This document shows positions 12,500 through 61,183 of a stretch of 64,000 bases of DNA, piece by piece. Each line of letters starts with the position of its first letter. The stretch's first letter is position 1. The DNA is taken from contig NZ_CP040098.1 of NCBI RefSeq assembly GCF_005377625.1, positions 1,116,001 to 1,180,000 of the forward strand, in the 5' to 3' direction. The DNA comes from Desulfoglaeba alkanexedens ALDC. Lineage in GTDB: Bacteria; Desulfobacterota; Syntrophobacteria; Syntrophobacterales; DSM-9756. A model generated the notes under the pieces. The model saw nothing but the letters and a program-made list of their open reading frames with translations. It searched no databases and was not told the origin of the DNA. Position numbers and translations under genes: made by a program.

Positions 12500-13740
12500 C
12501 CCCCATCACCCCATAAGCGCTGAGTTGTTTTTGCCCGGTATCGACCGGAAAAAATGAACATCGAACATTGAACGTCCAACATCGAATGGTGAATGGGTGC
12601 GGATCTTTTAGAACGACATCCAGGGTGACCCTCTGAGGTAGATCCAGATGGCCTTGAAGCAGCAAGCGCATCAGCTCCGTTTCCCCTTGTTCCCAAGCTC
12701 CAGCTTGGGAACAAGGTGGATGGTGGAGATTGGGAACAAGGTCAAAAAATCCCCCTCTCCCTTGATGGGAGAGGGTTGGGGTGAGGGTGAGAAAATTAAC
12801 GTATGTCAATCAGTTACATTCCCCTCCCCTTAATCCCCTCCCACAAGGGGAGGGGAAATAGAATTCCCCTCGTTCCCAAGCTCTGGCTTGGGTACGGCGT
12901 CATGGGAACCGAAGCTGGAGCTTCTGCACACTTGTGTTCCCAAGCTGGAGCTTGGGAACAAGAAGCAAAAGATCTGCACCCAATGGTGAATGGGAAATGA
13001 ACATCGAACATTGAACGTCCAACATCGAATGGTGAATGGGAAATGAACATCGAACATTGAACGCCCAACATCGAATGGTGAATGGGAAATGAACATCGAA
13101 CATTGAACGCCCAACATCGAATGGTGAATGGGAAATGAACATCGAACATTGAACGTCCAACATCGAATGGTGAATGGGAAATGAACATCGAACATTTCCA
13201 TCGTTCCCAAGCTCCAGCTTGGGAACGCCCTGCGAGGGAAGCTCCAGCTTCCCTCCTGCTACAGCTGAAACGCGCTGTCTTTCTAGGGATCTCGCCAGGA
13301 TCTCGAAGTGGTCTTTCCCTTCGTTCTCAAGCTCTGGCTTGGAAACGGCCTCACCGAAGCTGGAGCTTCTGCACAGTTGTGTTCCCAATCTGGAGCTTGG
13401 GAACAAGAAACAACCCGGTTTTTCATTCGATGTTGAACGTTCAATGTTCGATGTTCGACGTTCATCTTTAAAAACAACCCAATGGCATAAATGCAACCCG
13501 GTTTCCCTTCGTTCCCAAGCTCTGGCTTGGAAACGGCCTCACCGAAGCTGGAGCTTCTGCACGGTTGTGTTCCCAATCTGGAGCTTGGGAACAAGAAACA
13601 ACCCGGTTTTTCATTCGATGTTGAACGTTCAATGTTCGATGTTCGACGTTCATCTTTAAAAACAACGCAATGGCATAAATGCAACCCGGTTTCCCCTCGT
13701 TCCTAATCTGGATCTTGGGAACGAGGAAAAGGCTCACCTC
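12500..13740. repeat. Repeat island: heptad arrays, palindromes, G-rich repeats
   Basis: It begins at about 12,506 with the same left end as the proA-nadD element (ATAAGCGCTGAGTTGTTTTT). Heptad-type sequence follows at 12,556-12,600; palindromes at 12,689-12,712, 12,872-12,895, 12,936-12,959 and 13,203-13,226, with diverged ones near 13,321, 13,381, 13,511, 13,571 and 13,699; and G-rich repeats near 12,750 and 12,826. The core is a tandem array of a 46-bp unit with four full copies (starts 12,999, 13,045, 13,091, 13,137) and a truncated fifth at 13,183. A segment with the opposite heptad orientation (13,316-13,500) is duplicated almost exactly at 13,506-13,690. Open frames on both strands are repeat-derived and not genes. 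Confidence 0.9.
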
Positions 13741-16752: not shown

Positions 16753-18009
16753 ATGAACCATCGGGACAAGGTGCGGACCATGGGGAAACGGGCCAAGGAA
16801 GCGGCCCACGAGATGGCCAAGGCCGGGGACGCCGTCAAGAGGGATTTCCTGGAAGGGACGGCGAAACGGCTGGAATCCGAGCGGCGCCGCATCGCGGAAG
16901 CCAACGACCGGGACATCGAGTCCGGCCGTGAAAAGGGGCTCCCAGACCCGAAACTGGACCGGCTCCGGCTTTCCGACAAGGTTCTGAATGAAATGATGGA
17001 GGGCCTTCGGGAAGTCGCTTTGCTTCCCGACCCCGTGGGCCGAGTGACTTCCATGTGGACGCGGCCGAACGGATTGAGGGTCGGGCGGATGCGGATACCG
17101 TTGGGGGTGGTGGGCATCATCTACGAGTCGCGACCCAATGTGACGGTGGACGCCGCGGCGCTCTGCATCAAGGCGGGAAACGCCGTGATCCTTCGAGGCG
17201 GCTCGGAAGCGTTCCATTCCAACCAGTGCCTGGCAGCGATTCTCCGAGAATCGCTCCGCGCCGCCGGACTTCCGGAAGCGGCGATCCAGGTCATGGAAAC
17301 CACGGAACGGGAAGCGGTCCTGGAAATGCTCCAGCTGGAAGACTGCATCGACGTAATGATCCCGAGGGGCGGCGAGGAACTGATCCGGTTCGTAGCGGCC
17401 AACGCTCGAATGCCCGTCCTCAAGCACTACAAGGGCGTGTGCCACATCTACGTGGATGAAGACGCCGATCCCGACATGGCGGAGGCGCTCTGTATCAACG
17501 CCAAGGTCCAGCGTCCCGCCGTCTGCAACGCCATGGAAACGCTTTTGGTGCACCAAAGGATCGCACCGGAGTTTCTGCCACGGATGGCCGAAGCCTTTCG
17601 GCGCCGCGGAGTGGAACTTCGCGGCTGCCCCGAAACCTGTCGCATCGTTCCCGAATGTCGGCGGGCCGAAGAAGAAGACTGGAGCGCCGAATACCTGGAC
17701 CTTATCCTGGCGGTTCGAGTCGTTCCGGACATGGATGCGGCCATCGCTCACATCGCTCGGTATGGATCCAACCATACGGAAGCCATCGTGACCCGAAACT
17801 ACGAGCGGGCCCACCGATTCGTGCAGGAGGTTCAGTCTTCGCTGGTCATGGTGAATGCGTCCACGCGTTTCAACGACGGGTATCAGCTGGGTCTGGGCGC
17901 CGAGATCGGCATATCCACTTCGCGGCTTCACGCTTTCGGTCCCATGGGCGTCGAGGAACTCACCACTACCAAGTTCGTCGCTTTCGGCAACGGCCAGGTG
18001 CGGGTGTGA
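16753..18009 (+). CDS. proA: Gamma-glutamyl phosphate reductase
   Basis: ProA reduces the ProB product with NADPH to glutamate semialdehyde, which cyclises on the way to proline. The 418-residue protein has the aldehyde-dehydrogenase fold, with the catalytic cysteine in [16 protein letters not shown] and a C-terminal [20 protein letters not shown] segment. AAGGAGG lies about ten bases before the ATG. The stop codon lies inside the 13-bp direct repeat that flanks the downstream insertion, so the end of proA remains intact. Confidence 0.97.
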
Positions 18010-18014
18010 GGACC
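18002..18014 (+). repeat. Left copy of a 13-bp direct repeat flanking the heptad element
   Basis: GGGTGTGAGGACC here is repeated exactly at 18,863-18,875. The copies bracket the insertion between proA and nadD like a target-site duplication. The left copy contains the proA stop codon. Confidence 0.85.
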
Positions 18015-18055
18015 ATAAGCGCTAAGTTGTTTTGGCCGGTATCGACTGGAAAAAT

Positions 18056-18476
18056 GAACATTGAACATTGAACATTGAACGTCCAACATCGAATGCTGAA
18101 TGAGAAATGAACATCGAACGTCCAACGTCGAATGGTGAATGAGAAATGAACATCGAACATCGAACGTCCAACGTCGAATGGTGAATGAGAAATGAACATC
18201 GAACATCGAACGTCCAACATCGAATGCTGAATGAGAAATGAACATCGAACATCGAACGTCCAACATCGAATGCTGAATGAGAAATGAACATCGAACATCG
18301 AACATCCAACATCGAATGGTGAATGGGAAATGAACATCGAACATCGAACGTCCAACATCGAATGGTGAATGGGAAATGAACATCGAACATCGAACGTCCA
18401 ACATCGAATGGTGAATGGGAAATGAACATCGAACATCGAACATTGAACGTCCAACGTCGAATGCTGAATGGGAAAA
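18056..18476 (+). repeat. Tandem array, 46-bp unit built from heptads
   Basis: Nine units start at 18,056, 18,109, 18,148, 18,194, 18,240, 18,286, 18,332, 18,378 and 18,424. Their lengths are 53, 39, six times 46, and 53, which differ by exactly 7. Each is a run of xAAC/TxxG-type heptads such as GAACATC, CAACATC and GAATGGT plus a closing AAAT. Confidence 0.93.
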
Positions 18477-18625
18477 AAGGAACTTAGGGAGACCCAGAGA
18501 TGGTTAAAACTTATTCAGTGTGTACCACTAATCAAAAAACCCAAACTACCCGTCGTTCCCAAGCTGGAGCTTGGGAACGAGAAGCAAACAACCCAACGGC
18601 ATAAATGCAACCCGGTTTTTTTCAT

Positions 18626-18797
<172 letters not shown>

Positions 18798-18862
18798 CTT
18801 TAAAAACAACCCAATGGCATAAATGCAACCCGTGAATGCTTACAAAATAACTTAGCGCTTAT

Positions 18863-32342: not shown

Positions 32343-32783
32343 GAGGTTGTCTGAGAATGCCCTTCACCCTTCCGGGGATTGGGTATCCGTTTTTCGCGTA
32401 GGGGCGGTTTCCCCTCGTTCCCAAGCTCCAGCTTGGGAACAAGGTGGAATTCTATTTCCCCTCCCCTTGTGGGAGGGGATTAAGGGGAGGGGGGAGAGGG
32501 GGGATTTTACCCCTTGTTCCCAGGCTCCGGCTTAGGAACGAGGGGATCAGTCACGGCCTCATGGGAATCGAAGCTGGAGCTTCTGCACACCTGTGTTCCC
32601 AAGCTCCAGCTTGGGAACAAGGTGGAAGGAGCGACTCATGTCCTGTAGGGGCGCAGCGGCCCTGCGCCCCTACTTGCCGGCGATCCCGATCGCAGCGAGG
32701 GCGCCGCTCCCACAATGGGTCGCCCTCCCAGGAACGCCGGAGCTCCGCACGGCCCGAACCAGAAGGCCCCGTCCATCCCCCGT
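32343..32783. repeat. MITE-like element interrupted by palindromic and G-rich repeats
   Basis: The left end GAGGTTGTCTGAGAA begins right after the pseudouridine synthase stop. After ...GGGGCGGTT (32,409) come a palindrome (32,418-32,441), the G-rich repeat (about 32,457-32,493), a diverged palindrome (32,516-32,539) and another (32,595-32,618). The element then resumes at about 32,626 with AAGGAGCGACTCATG and CTGTAGGGGCGCAGC. The intact copy at 46,121 has no such interruption, so this looks nested. No gene is seen before recJ ends at 32,784. Confidence 0.75.
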
Positions 32784-42411: not shown

Positions 42412-42480
42412 TGCCCGTTTCACCCAACGGTTTTCGCCCAGCCGCCGGTCCTCACCGCGAAGACGCGGCCGGCAGTTTGT

Positions 42481-42726
42481 TGCAGGCAGGTTTTCTGACT
42501 CTCGGATTCTCCTACCGGCTGCGCCTTCCCACCGGGCGCCCAACCTCCAACCCCCTCGAACTTCGAAACGCACCGTGGTATTCCAAAGGGTGCGCTCCGC
42601 CGAGTGAGCTCTTAAGCGGTCAAGCGCCCGCCAGTGGCCTTCCTGCAGCCTTCGTCCCCGATCACAGCGGCGGGCCCGTTCCCGATTTGCACGGGATTCC
42701 CTCTTGAACCTTTCGGCACCTGCAAC
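42481..42726 (-). promoter_or_regulatory. Cobalamin riboswitch
   Basis: Reading the minus strand in order: GGTGCC (42,715-42,720), AAGAGGGAATCCCGTG, GGGAACGGGCCCGCCGCTGT, GCCACTG, a GGGAAGGC segment, and the B12 box AGTCAGAAAACCTGCC next to 42,481. These are the conserved core elements of the AdoCbl/cobalamin aptamer in the correct order. It lies about 200 bp upstream of btuB. Confidence 0.95.
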
Positions 42727-42732
42727 GATTGG

Positions 42733-42762
42733 TTCCTACCAAGATGCTCTATCGGTTGTCAA
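42733..42762 (-). promoter_or_regulatory. Probable promoter of the btu operon
   Basis: On the minus strand TTGACA (42,757-42,762), an 18-bp spacer and TAGGAA preceded by TGG (an extended -10) end just before the aptamer. Confidence 0.5.
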
Positions 42763-46120: not shown

Positions 46121-46339
46121 GAGGCTGTCTGAGAACACCCTTCACCCTTCTGAGGATTGAGTGACCGTTTTTTCGCGTAGGGGCGGTTCGCGAACGGCAC
46201 TTAAGGAGCGATTCATGCCCTGTAGGGGCGCAGCCGCGCTGCGCCCCTACTTGCCGGCTATCGCGGCCAAGGCCGCTCCTACAGGAACAAGGAACCTCAT
46301 CAGGGCCCGACTTTCATGAGCTTGTTTTTGGGCAGGCCC
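46121..46339 (+). mobile_element. MITE-like composite repeat, intact copy 1
   Basis: It begins GAGGCTGTCTGAGAA and ends TTTTTGGGCAGGCCC; the ends are related imperfect inverted repeats. The interior has CTGTAGGGGCGCAGC and TCGCGGCCAAGGCCGC palindromes resembling REP sequences. At 219 bp it has no coding capacity. The same element lies inverted at 58,869-59,073. Confidence 0.7.
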
Positions 46340-49588: not shown

Positions 49589-49903
49589 AAGAAGACATCC
49601 GGGCCCGGGCCGAATCCTCTTTCTGTTGATGTTCCAGACGGTGTATCTCCAGTTATTGAGATGTTACGAAGTTGGAGCTTCTGCACAGTTGTGTTCCCAA
49701 GCTGGAGCTTGGGAACAAGGTGGAATTTCCCGAGACTTTTAACATCTTACAATCCTGGAGATGGTTTGCATCGCGGGCAAGGCCGCTCTTACAGGAACAA
49801 GGAACCTCAGTGCCCGACGAGCATGGGCTTGTTTTTGGACAAGCTCTAAACTTCAACCCAAAAAACATCTTGCCATGAACCCCTCATGTCACAGGAGCCC
49901 TCG
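49589..49903. repeat. Palindromic repeat and partial MITE-like end
   Basis: A palindrome lies at 49,693-49,716. The right part of the MITE-like element is at about 49,769-49,846, ending ...TTTTTGGACAAGCTC and followed by TAAA. The rest (49,589-49,660) shows nothing recognisable. Confidence 0.75.
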
Positions 49904-56951: not shown

Positions 56952-58610
56952 ATGTCGCAGCTCACCCAATCGCCGCGTTGGAAGGCCTTGAGAGAACATC
57001 GCCGGGAAATGGCGGGAGTCCGAATGAGGGATCTTTTTGCCGCGGACCCTCAGCGCTTTCAGCGGTTCTCTCTGCGCCTCGGAGACCTTCTCGTCGATTT
57101 TTCAAAAAACCTCATCACGGAAAAGACTCTCGGTCTGTTGCTGGAACTGGCCCATCAGCAGCGGCTTTCGGAACAGATCCAGGCCATGTTCCGCGGCGAT
57201 CGGATCAACACGACGGAAGGACGCCCGGTGCTTCACGTAGCGCTTCGAAACCGTTCTCAGCGCCCCATCCTGGTGGACGGCGAAGACGTGATGCCGGAAA
57301 TAAACGCGGTACTGGACCGCATGCGGACCTTCACCGAGCAGGTTCGGTCCGGCCGATGGAAAGGACATTTCGACGACGAGATAACCGACGTGGTGAACAT
57401 CGGCATCGGAGGGTCCGACCTGGGGCCCCGGATGGTCACCACCGCCCTTGCCCACTATCACCAACCCCCCATGCGCTTCCACTTCGTTTCCAACGTGGAC
57501 GGCACGCATCTTTCGGAGACGTTGAAGCCGCTCCGACCGGAAACGACCCTTTTCATTGTGGCGTCCAAGACGTTCACCACGCAGGAAACCATGACCAATG
57601 CGGCGTCGGCCAAGGCGTGGCTGCTGTCCCGGCTCGGCGATGAGAAGGCCGTGGCGAAACATTTTGTTGCGGTTTCCACTAATCGGAAAGCCGTTTCGGC
57701 CTTCGGCATCGATCCGGAAAACATGTTCGGCTTTTGGGATTGGGTCGGCGGGCGTTATTCGCTCTGGTCCGCCATCGGGCTGCCCATCGCCCTGGCCGTC
57801 GGCATGGACCGTTTCGAAGAACTGCTGGCCGGGGCCCACAAGGTGGACGAACATTTCCGAACCGCCCCTTTTGAGACGAACATCCCGGTGATCCTGGGAC
57901 TCCTGGGGATCTGGTACAATAATTTCTTCGGCGCCGAAACCCACGCCGTCCTTCCCTACGACCAATACCTGCGGCTCCTGCCGTCCCACCTGCAACAGCT
58001 CGACATGGAAAGCAACGGGAAGAGCGTCACCCGGGAGGGTGAACGCGTGGACTATGCCACCGGGCCCATCATCTGGGGAGAACCCGGAACCAACGGCCAG
58101 CACGCGTTCTTCCAGCTCCTCCATCAGGGCACCCGGCTCGTTCCCTGCGACTTCCTGGCTCCGGCACAGCCCCTGAACCCCCTCGGCCGCCACCACAGCA
58201 TCCTCGTGGCCAACTTCCTGGCTCAAACCGAAGCCCTCATGAAAGGAAAATCCGAACAGGAAGCCCGGCGCGAACTGGAACATGCCGGAGTCGCGGGCCC
58301 TATGCTGGGGATACTCGCGAAGGCCAGGACCTTCGACGGAAATCGGCCCAGCAATTCCATCGTGTACAAAAGACTCACCCCCGAAACACTGGGAATGATC
58401 CTCGCCGTCTACGAGCACAAGGTCTTCACCCAGGGGGCGGTCTGGAATATCAATTCCTTTGACCAGATGGGAGTGGAACTGGGAAAGCAGCTGGCCAGGG
58501 CCATCGAACCCGAGCTGGAAGGCCGGGGCGCCGTAGCGTCCCACGACGCCTCCACCAGCGGGCTCATAAGGCATTTCAGGCGGCTGGGGCTGGGATCGGA
58601 GAAATCCTGA
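56952..58610 (+). CDS. pgi: Glucose-6-phosphate isomerase
   Basis: The 552-residue protein interconverts glucose 6-phosphate and fructose 6-phosphate. It shows [56 protein letters not shown] and a C-terminal [30 protein letters not shown]-like GGGAGG precedes the ATG. It follows the debranching enzyme by 45 bp. Confidence 0.97.
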
Positions 58611-58868
58611 GCTTCGAGATCCCGAGCCCGGTTTGGAAATGCACACGGTGAATTTCCCGGAACACGTCTCCTTCCCGATCTTTCGGCACCATCGCCGATC
58701 GGCTTTTCCGGCAGCGAAGGCTCGGGTTCCTCCACGCTCAGATCAAAGACCGCTTCTTGAGCCTCGGTCGCCGTCCGCCCGGTCCTCGCCCGTTCGCGGC
58801 AGCGGGCAGCGCCCTGTGAGGCAACGGAGCACGGTGGCCCGTGCCCCTCCTTGCTGCACAAGGCTAAA
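58611..58868. other. Gene-free interval after pgi
   Basis: This 258-bp stretch has several GC-rich near-palindromes but no recognisable gene, RNA gene or terminator with a T run. Confidence 0.4.
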
Positions 58869-59073
58869 GAGCTTGTCCAAAAACAAGCTCATGAAAGTCG
58901 GGCCCTGAAGTTCCTTGTTCCTGTAGGAGCGGCCTTGGCCGCGATCGGGGTCGCCGGCAAGCCGGCTCCTACAGGGTATGAGTCGCTCCTTAGCTGCCGT
59001 TCGCGAACCGCCCTACGGCGAAAAAACGGACACCCAATCCTCAGAAGCGTGACGGGTATTCTCAGACAGCCTC
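58869..59073 (-). mobile_element. MITE-like composite repeat, intact copy 2
   Basis: Reverse of the 46,121 copy. It starts GAGCTTGTCCAAAAA, ends TTCTCAGACAGCCTC, and contains TAGGAGCGGCCTTGGCC and a GCCGGCAAGCCGGCTCC hairpin. TAAA occurs just outside both ends, as a 4-bp duplication would. The 205-bp unit sits between convergent genes pgi and the cytochrome. Confidence 0.75.
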
Positions 59074-59106
59074 TAAAGAGGATCGGTCGTCTTAAAAAAG
59101 GGCGGA

Positions 59107-60510
59107 CTACAGCGCCCGCATGAAAGCCACCAGCGCTTTCTTTTCTTCCGCAGTGAGCTTCAGCTCTTGAACCAGGTTGAAGAATTCAACCGTGTCTTCG
59201 AGAGTGAGGAGTCGCCCGTCGTGCAGGTAAGGCGGCGAATCCTTGATGCCCCGAAGAGGAAAGGTCTTGATGGGACCGTCGGCGGCCGCCATGCGCCCGT
59301 TGACCATCTGAGGCTTGAAGAAGCGTTCCGTGCGGAGATTGTGCATCAGGTTGTCCGTATAATAGGGAGCCGGATGACAGACGGCGCAATTGGCCTTGCC
59401 GAAAAAGATTTCTTCTCCCCGCATTTCCTCCGGGGTGGCCTTCCCGGGATCCAGCCGGCCGTAAATGTTCAGTTTCGGCGCCGGTGGAAAATCCAGCAGC
59501 GCTTGGAACTCGGCCATGAAATGCACTTGGCTCCCACGTTCCAACACATTCACGCCCTTCTTGGTGGCGATCACCGGGTCCCCGTCGAAATAAGCGGCCC
59601 GCTGCTCGAATTCCGTAAAGTCTTCCACCGACTTGAGCGCCCGCTGCGAACCGAACAGCCGCTGAACATTCACACCTCGCAGCGTCGGCGTGTCGATCCG
59701 GTGCCTGAATTCCTGAGGACGGATGTCGCCCACGAGATGGGTCGCCGCATTGGTGTGACCGTTCACGTGGCAGTCGAAACAAGTAACTCCACGGCTGGGG
59801 AGTTCGCTCCGGCGGTCCTCGGTCTGGTTGAACTGCTGCTGCGGGAAGGGTGTCACGAGAAGCCGCAGCCCTTCGAGTTGCTTAGGGTTCAAAATGCCGT
59901 TGAACAGCTCATAGTAGTTCATTAGAGTAACAACCTTTCCCTGGGAGACGTCTCCCAGGTCGGGGCGGGTCGTGAGGTAGATGGGCGGAGGAAACTCGGG
60001 CAGCAGGTGCTCGGGCAGATCGTAATCCAGGTCGAAACGGGTAAGGTCCCGTCCTTCCTGTTTCTTGATTTCGTCGATGTGAAATTGGGGAAAAACCTGG
60101 CCGCCTTCCACGTGGTTGGGATGAGGAAGCGGCAGAAAACCTTTGGGCCACAGCCCCTTTTTGAAAATCTCTTCGGGGGACATGGCGCCCAGCCTGTCCC
60201 AGGTCATGCCCTCGGGAAGCTTGGCCCTGACGCCTTCCTGAACGACTTTCCCGCCGCTCATGGTGACTCCCTGGGCCGGCCGGTCACCCAGATCATAGCG
60301 CTCATTGAGTAAATCCATCTGGCGCTTCATGACCGCGGCCTTTTCGCCTTTCATGCGGGTCATGGTCTCTTCGAAGGGTTCCTTGATAACCACCGGCAAA
60401 TAACTGCTCGGAACCATGTCGGCCGCTCCCGCCGCAAAAGGAACCAGCAGGACGCACAATAAAAGGGCCCACCATAACCGACGGCTGCTGGAAAAACACT
60501 GGCTTTGCAT
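59107..60510 (-). CDS. Di-haem cytochrome c peroxidase-like protein
   Basis: The 467-residue precursor has a signal peptide (WWALLLCVLLVPFAAGAA) and two CxxCH haem sites (CFDCH and CAVCH), with PLRGIKDSPPYLHDGRLLTLEDTVEFFN, the CcpA/MauG-family region. It is periplasmic. Compared with standard di-haem peroxidases it has an extra N-terminal part of about 130 residues before the first haem. Hydrogen peroxide reduction is likely but other redox roles are possible. GGAGATG precedes the ATG. Confidence 0.85.
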   Translation of the reverse strand: MQSQCFSSSRRLWWALLLCVLLVPFAAGAADMVPSSYLPVVIKEPFEETMTRMKGEKAAVMKRQMDLLNERYDLGDRPAQGVTMSGGKVVQEGVRAKLPEGMTWDRLGAMSPEEIFKKGLWPKGFLPLPHPNHVEGGQVFPQFHIDEIKKQEGRDLTRFDLDYDLPEHLLPEFPPPIYLTTRPDLGDVSQGKVVTLMNYYELFNGILNPKQLEGLRLLVTPFPQQQFNQTEDRRSELPSRGVTCFDCHVNGHTNAATHLVGDIRPQEFRHRIDTPTLRGVNVQRLFGSQRALKSVEDFTEFEQRAAYFDGDPVIATKKGVNVLERGSQVHFMAEFQALLDFPPAPKLNIYGRLDPGKATPEEMRGEEIFFGKANCAVCHPAPYYTDNLMHNLRTERFFKPQMVNGRMAAADGPIKTFPLRGIKDSPPYLHDGRLLTLEDTVEFFNLVQELKLTAEEKKALVAFMRAL

Positions 60511-61183
60511 AGGATCATCTCCATGCTTACGGGTGTTCGATAAGATCAACGCCTCCAGGTTTCGGGTGATGCACGATCGCTTTTCACCTCCCTTCACCGC
60601 CTGGGCCGACGCCCGGCGTGTTTCAAGGCGCGTCCATACCGACCCCTGGGATCCGCCGATTCGCTCTCCGCGGAACCTTGCGGGGTGCGATCGGTTGAAC
60701 GCGGGAGAGTTTGCGAAGGCCCGCCGCAGGCACATATGCTCCATGCGGCCGCCTTCCAGGTTAATGTGAAAGAACCGTGCTTTCGCCTCGTCGCTGGGAG
60801 CGGCCTCCGCCGTGCCCTGGATCGCCGGCGTATCGGCTCCTACATGCGAGCCGCATTCATGGCGGGTGTTTTTATCCCTCGTGGTGGTGGTGGTGGTAGT
60901 GGCGCATTGAGCGCCGTGGCCATGTTCTGCCGCGTCTTGAGATAAACCGGAACAGCTCCCTGTCCTGATGCCATTTCAGAACACTTCCTCAGCCCGGTGT
61001 CAACCCCCGAGATACTCTGCGCATGCTCTTGGACGCCCCTTTCCGTCGGAGCTTCAGGGTTTCCGGCAGCCCTTCGGAACGCTAGCCAAAAACAATTGCG
61101 ACTTGACAACCCGGCGCTCGACGGGCCATGTTCCACGGACAATCCCCCAAGGGCATACATGGTTGACGGAAAACCCGGACGAT
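60511..61183. other. Divergent intergenic region cytochrome / mla operon
   Basis: It should contain both promoters. Candidates are TTGACA at 61,103-61,108 (plus) with a weak -10, and TTGACA on the minus strand near 61,009. A short stretch of repeated CAC codons lies on the minus strand near 60,885-60,905. No supported gene is seen in the 673 bp. Confidence 0.4.

Follow-up and report, generated by a model that had tools for sequence, protein, structure and literature searches.

A short mobile element of Desulfoglaeba alkanexedens ALDC with a 3-bp TAA/TTA target duplication and GTAG-tagged REP hairpins inside

MITEs, REPs and REPs embedded in larger palindromic repeats have all been published before. 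In the accessible part of one such account, a GTAG REP is defined as a hairpin beside a GTAG motif, often arranged in dimers, and REPs are reported inside larger palindromes, namely the GTAG-tagged GTAG-15 of Anabaena variabilis and the CGTC-tagged CGTC-1 of H. neapolitanus (PMC3733652). The IS1031 group of IS5-family insertion sequences is described, in the portion of the source at hand, as preferring TNA and making an exclusive 3-bp repeat (PMC12016507). The element described here, element A, can be compared with all of these. Like the MITEs of the IS1031 group it has GAG-type ends, a 3-bp TAA/TTA duplication (within TNA), a non-coding sequence of about 200 bp and tens of copies; unlike them, it has no intact parent IS that we could find in the genome, its ends are imperfect (10/15) and nearest to those of IS1182-type elements, and its middle consists of REP hairpins. 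With RAYT REPtrons it shares REP hairpins with outward GTAG motifs, yet no tyrosine transposase was found within A, and A has a target duplication. As in GTAG-15 and CGTC-1, REP dimers lie within a larger repeated sequence; those hosts are described, in the part of the source that covers them, as palindromes, whereas A is bounded by transposon ends and a target duplication (PMC3733652). Element A thus adds a new family to a known kind of repeat, and the publications found in our literature search, as far as their text was accessible, name neither this element nor any Desulfoglaeba MITE.

The window, i.e., the whole stretch of 64 kb that was analysed, corresponds to bases 1,116,001-1,180,000 of the single chromosome of 3,365,583 bases (PMC7180275). 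The copy under study is a complete element of 205 bp on the minus strand (58,869-59,073), located between the 3' ends of two convergent genes, a phosphoglucose isomerase gene (56,952-58,610; PF00342) and an open reading frame without a Pfam match (59,107-60,744). Its left terminal inverted repeat, GAGGCTGTCTGAGAA, lies at 59,059-59,073 (minus strand) and its right one, reading inward as GAGCTTGTCCAAAAA, at 58,869-58,883 (plus strand). These imperfect repeats agree at 10/15 positions, a level reached by 0.07% of shuffled right ends, and the right end sits within the palindrome GAGCTTGT-TTTTGG-ACAAGCTC. A second complete copy of 219 bp is found on the plus strand at 46,121-46,339; the two are mutually inverted and match at 87% over 109 nt and at 93-98% over shorter arms. 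The initial annotation had described both copies, their GAGG/CxTGTC...AA ends and REP-like hairpins within them, all of which are borne out by the sequence. The partial copy that it placed from 49,769 is a right arm alone (49,770-49,846, plus strand) and is indeed followed by TAAA.

Two further pieces of A are present in the window, both on the plus strand. One (32,343-32,704) has a left end preceded by TAA and no recognised right end; its left arm is broken at about 32,410-32,625 by a cluster of GTTCCCAAGC palindromes, after which the interior of A continues. The other (635-708) is a right arm shortened by about 11 end bases and followed by GTTCCCAAGC palindromes. Palindromes of the GTTCCCAAGCTCCAGCTTGGGAAC type, a second abundant repeat of the genome, occupy 19 places in the window between 706 and 49,724, and tandem arrays with a 46-bp unit and a 14-bp TTCGATGTTCAACG-type unit stand beside GTTCCCAAGC palindromes at 12,552-13,287 and 17,988-18,813. 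Over the window, Rfam reported only a cobalamin riboswitch (42,468-42,738, minus strand; RF00174, 85 bits) and a tRNA, with no family at A.

In the chromosome, element A has some 50-60 left ends and about as many right ends, with 0-2 matches for reversed-pattern controls. The left-end motif (20 positions, at most three mismatches) gave 59 matches against 2 in its control, five of the 59 belonging to the element B discussed below; the right-end motif gave 47 against none, and blastn with the 205-bp copy returned at least 66 matches (from the best 40 of the 207 candidates scored). Profile searches over part of the genome recovered 60 left and 71 right arms. Pairing arms up to 3 kb apart gave 31 pairs, with 29 left and 41 right arms remaining single; scanned inward for another end flanked by the same bases, these 70 arms yielded two weak matches. 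Copies measured in 19 left/right pairs span 205-540 bp, so that A is a short, putatively non-coding element with terminal inverted repeats, and aligned copies diverge by roughly 10-30%. A search for empty sites across a fraction of the genome gave no spanning match.

Outside this genome the ends of A are rare. Among the 39 genomes of the order searched with the right-end pattern, 60 matches fell in the genome of strain ALDC itself and at most two in any other, the same as in controls; the left-end pattern had no match in a genome contig collection (from which this genome is possibly absent), and a plasmid collection held no match to A. The interior is more widely shared: 4 of 39 other genomes match A, all four among the seven of the same family, and these matches cover mostly the REP core (query about 104-156) and not the ends. 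On contigs C21, C33 and C48 of one related genome (G004), short matches to the REP arms are spaced roughly 40-60 bases apart, suggesting tandem REP arrays.

The REP hairpins themselves form the middle of the element. In the 205-bp copy, a first GTAG-tagged hairpin (58,996-59,016, minus strand) is accompanied by a REP dimer with its GTAG motifs facing outward (58,920-58,974, minus strand), the part that recurs without A ends in the related genomes; in the 219-bp copy the hairpins occupy 46,219-46,285 (plus strand), one of them being a different hairpin (CTGTAGGGGCGCAGC...). The interior of A conforms to the published description of GTAG REPs. The predicted fold of the element is stable (-85.5 kcal/mol, z -2.8). 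Six aligned copies show clearly distinct versions of the first hairpin, long copies (up to 540 bp) bear additional hairpin motifs, and GTAGG/CCTAC motifs are missing from 2 of 19 copies (L061, L065). The middle of A may be regarded as a slot occupied by GTAG-tagged REP hairpins, a kind of repeat that is attributed to RAYT tyrosine transposases. Their presence and variation are directly visible; as to the route, REPs would have entered the MITE and there multiplied or been exchanged.

The flanks of A carry a clear target duplication. Of the 31 pairs, 24 have both arms within seven bases of the ends and a right arm used once only, and in 16 of these 24 complete copies the 3 bp before the left end equal the 3 bp after the right end (6.6 expected; 16 never reached in 20,000 shuffles of the right flanks). 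Agreement at 1, 2 or 4 bp does not exceed chance (P 0.87, 0.98 and 0.13, respectively). TAA is paired with TAA nine times and TTA with TTA five times, with one mixed case (Fisher P 0.002); one copy each has TAT twice and AAA twice, eight of the 24 copies lack an exact 3-bp match, and CTAG is found on neither side of any. When all arms reaching the ends are considered, TAA/TTA flanks occur at 30/56 left and 39/67 right arms versus a window background of 0.6%. The target duplication of A is 3 bp, TAA or TTA, and the paired TAA+TAA and TTA+TTA duplications point to staggered-cut insertion.

This result corrects the initial annotation, which had proposed a TAAA duplication. TAAA does flank the 205-bp copy on both sides (58,865-58,868 and 59,074-59,077), appearing as TTTA on the strand of the element. 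Still, it is the only 4-bp match among the 24 complete copies, which rules out TAAA as the family-wide duplication, and its fourth base would have arisen by chance or slippage on top of the 3-bp duplication. At 46,121 the flanks are CTAC and TGCC (TAC and TGC at 3 bp), so this copy has no duplication. The same annotation's view of a MITE-like, non-autonomous element with related ends holds with respect to copy number, end similarity and the existence of a target duplication, the latter being TAA/TTA instead of TAAA.

We propose that A is an old MITE moved by an IS5-family cut-and-paste transposase, most likely of the IS1031 type (DUF4096 + DDE_Tnp_1), with a probability of about two in three. 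Such a DDE transposase would have recognised the GAG...TGTC...AA ends of A and inserted the element at TAA/TTA with the observed 3-bp duplication, which fits the TNA rule of the IS1031 group. Support comes from other bacteria. Among 29 DUF4096 IS5-family loci examined in related genomes, those with matched ends include duplications of TTA (L137, L140) and TAA (L138), with end identities to A of 8-12/15. The same order also harbours DUF4096 loci of the CTAG type (L136, and L153, L154, L156 and L157 of genome G015), so that the transposase family does not fix the target. A scan of the contig collection with TWAGAGCYTGTCCRAAAAC returned 97 stretches, of which 80 were examined; they cluster in few genomes, with 17 in one Planctomycetota MAG, 8 in one Desulfobacteraceae MAG and 6 in one Chloroflexi MAG. 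TAA/TTA followed by the end GAGCYTGTCCRAAAAC recurs across several phyla (L213-L292). At 13/81 sites a second end bore the same 3-bp flank, one of these being a 158-bp MITE whose ends are perfect (L254); only 2/80 loci had an IS5-type transposase in the inner 2.2 kb (L235 and L292). L235, on a Rhodobacteraceae contig, is a complete IS of 933 bp with the ends GAGCCTGTCCGAAAA and GAGTCTGTCCGACAA, TAA on both sides and a DUF4096 + DDE_Tnp_1 gene that matches the NCBIfam IS5-family model; its first end is identical to that of A at 12-13/15 positions and its second at 11-12/15. Since the search pattern already held TWA and the end motif, only the second end, the second flank and the gene are independent evidence. 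Viral contigs with TWA or CTAG ends gave 9, 0 and 2 matches, with neither a second end nor a transposase recognised.

The initial annotation had expected the transposase elsewhere in the genome, where it was not found. Searches of the ALDC genome for DDE transposase genes yielded 16 places with PF01609, one fragment with PF13751 and one sub-threshold remnant with PF13340, none with a convincing pair of A-like ends. NF033580 gave sub-threshold matches only, the best being the same remnant, a broken IS5-type one near chromosome positions 2,813,355-2,813,986 without matching ends. No intact autonomous partner with A-like ends is thus available among these genes, the nearest candidates being this remnant and a fragment of the IS1182 family, one end of which is similar. 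The genome-wide comparison with IS ends that had been suggested succeeded in part: both ends of A stand far above controls, and other bacteria have similar-ended ISs that make this kind of duplication, but none was found intact in this genome. The divergence of the aligned copies (some 10-30%) and the failure to find an intact source IS indicate that A has probably ceased to transpose in strain ALDC.

A less probable alternative is that the enzyme which moved A was an IS1182-type transposase whose target had become relaxed or had changed from CTAG to TAA/TTA, in which case A and element B would be sister families. Element B is recognised by a shared sequence, GAGGCTGTCCGAGAACACAG, at five chromosomal places (243,310, 587,044, 1,962,007, 2,070,600 and 2,238,423), two of which are complete copies (173 bp) that contain GTTCCCAAGC palindromes and are flanked by CTAG at either end. 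As an IS1182-type MITE, B resembles A in its GAGGCTGTC.GAGAA ends and internal hairpin repeats, and differs in its 4-bp CTAG duplication, its length and its other hairpins. Its ends are similar to those of IS1182-type ISs of related genomes, and in the ALDC genome a similar end accompanies a fragment of an IS1182 transposase. The left end of A is identical at 14/15 positions to that of B and to an IS1182-associated end in genome G003, versus 12/15 for L235 and 11/15 for L137, while its right end matches an IS1182-type end in genome G005 at 13/15. In addition, the sole IS1182 remnant of the ALDC genome has the end GAGTTTGTCCGAGAA and a TTAG flank, and at 642,249 the end GAGCTTGTCCGAGAA with a CTAG flank is joined to an inner sequence resembling that of A (ATACCCTTCACCCTTTGG), which may connect A with B. 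However, IS1182-type ends were seen at 10/20 PF13751 loci (L118, L119, L125, L126, L127, L129, L130, L131, L132 and L134), each flanked by CTAG on the readable side, as are both complete copies of B on either side, whereas the flanks of A agree at 3 bp and just once at 4 bp. Moreover, an IS1182-like open reading frame was present in the inner 2.2 kb of none of the 80 loci from the scan for TWA-flanked ends.

The duplication thus favours an IS1031-type and the end sequence an IS1182-type enzyme. We have given the duplication more weight because it reports the spacing of the cuts made by the enzyme. As the left end of A is nearest to IS1182-type ends that are themselves flanked by CTAG, the IS1031-type parentage of A is likely but not certain.

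It is very improbable that A is a RAYT-type element (TIRtron or REPtron), moved as a whole unit by a REP-handling tyrosine transposase. GTAG-tagged REPs are present within A, and a gene for a REP-associated tyrosine transposase (NF047646, E 3.6e-59; locus L199, from about chromosome position 193,800) is situated some 0.5 kb away from a left end of A at 194,766, which follows TTA. To our knowledge, target duplications are not expected from HUH transposition of the IS200/IS605 type, and the 3-bp duplication of A therefore disfavours this explanation. In the stretch examined around that gene, no right end of A is recognised past it, and the surrounding repeats, judged by eye, are of another type (GGTGCGTTGCGCCCGC...). 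Least probable of all is a static intergenic repeat (a structured RNA or terminator-like sequence) spread by recombination and not transposition, an idea to which the many half copies (29 left, 41 right) and the strong predicted fold lend themselves but against which stand the paired TAA+TAA and TTA+TTA duplications and the lack of an Rfam family in the window besides the cobalamin riboswitch and the tRNA.

In summary, our analysis corrects the duplication of A to 3 bp and indicates the likely type of its transposase. Apart from the nesting of REPs and the duplication, this is ordinary mobile-element archaeology of one chromosome. Tentatively, two unrelated cut-and-paste MITE families, A with TAA/TTA and B with CTAG, may each have acquired a different REP or palindrome family, and REPs might in that event travel as passengers of DDE transposons and not only via their own tyrosine transposase. 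With its REP hairpins clearly nested in a transposon whose target duplication can still be read, element A is a useful case for asking whether REPs are able to spread as passengers.
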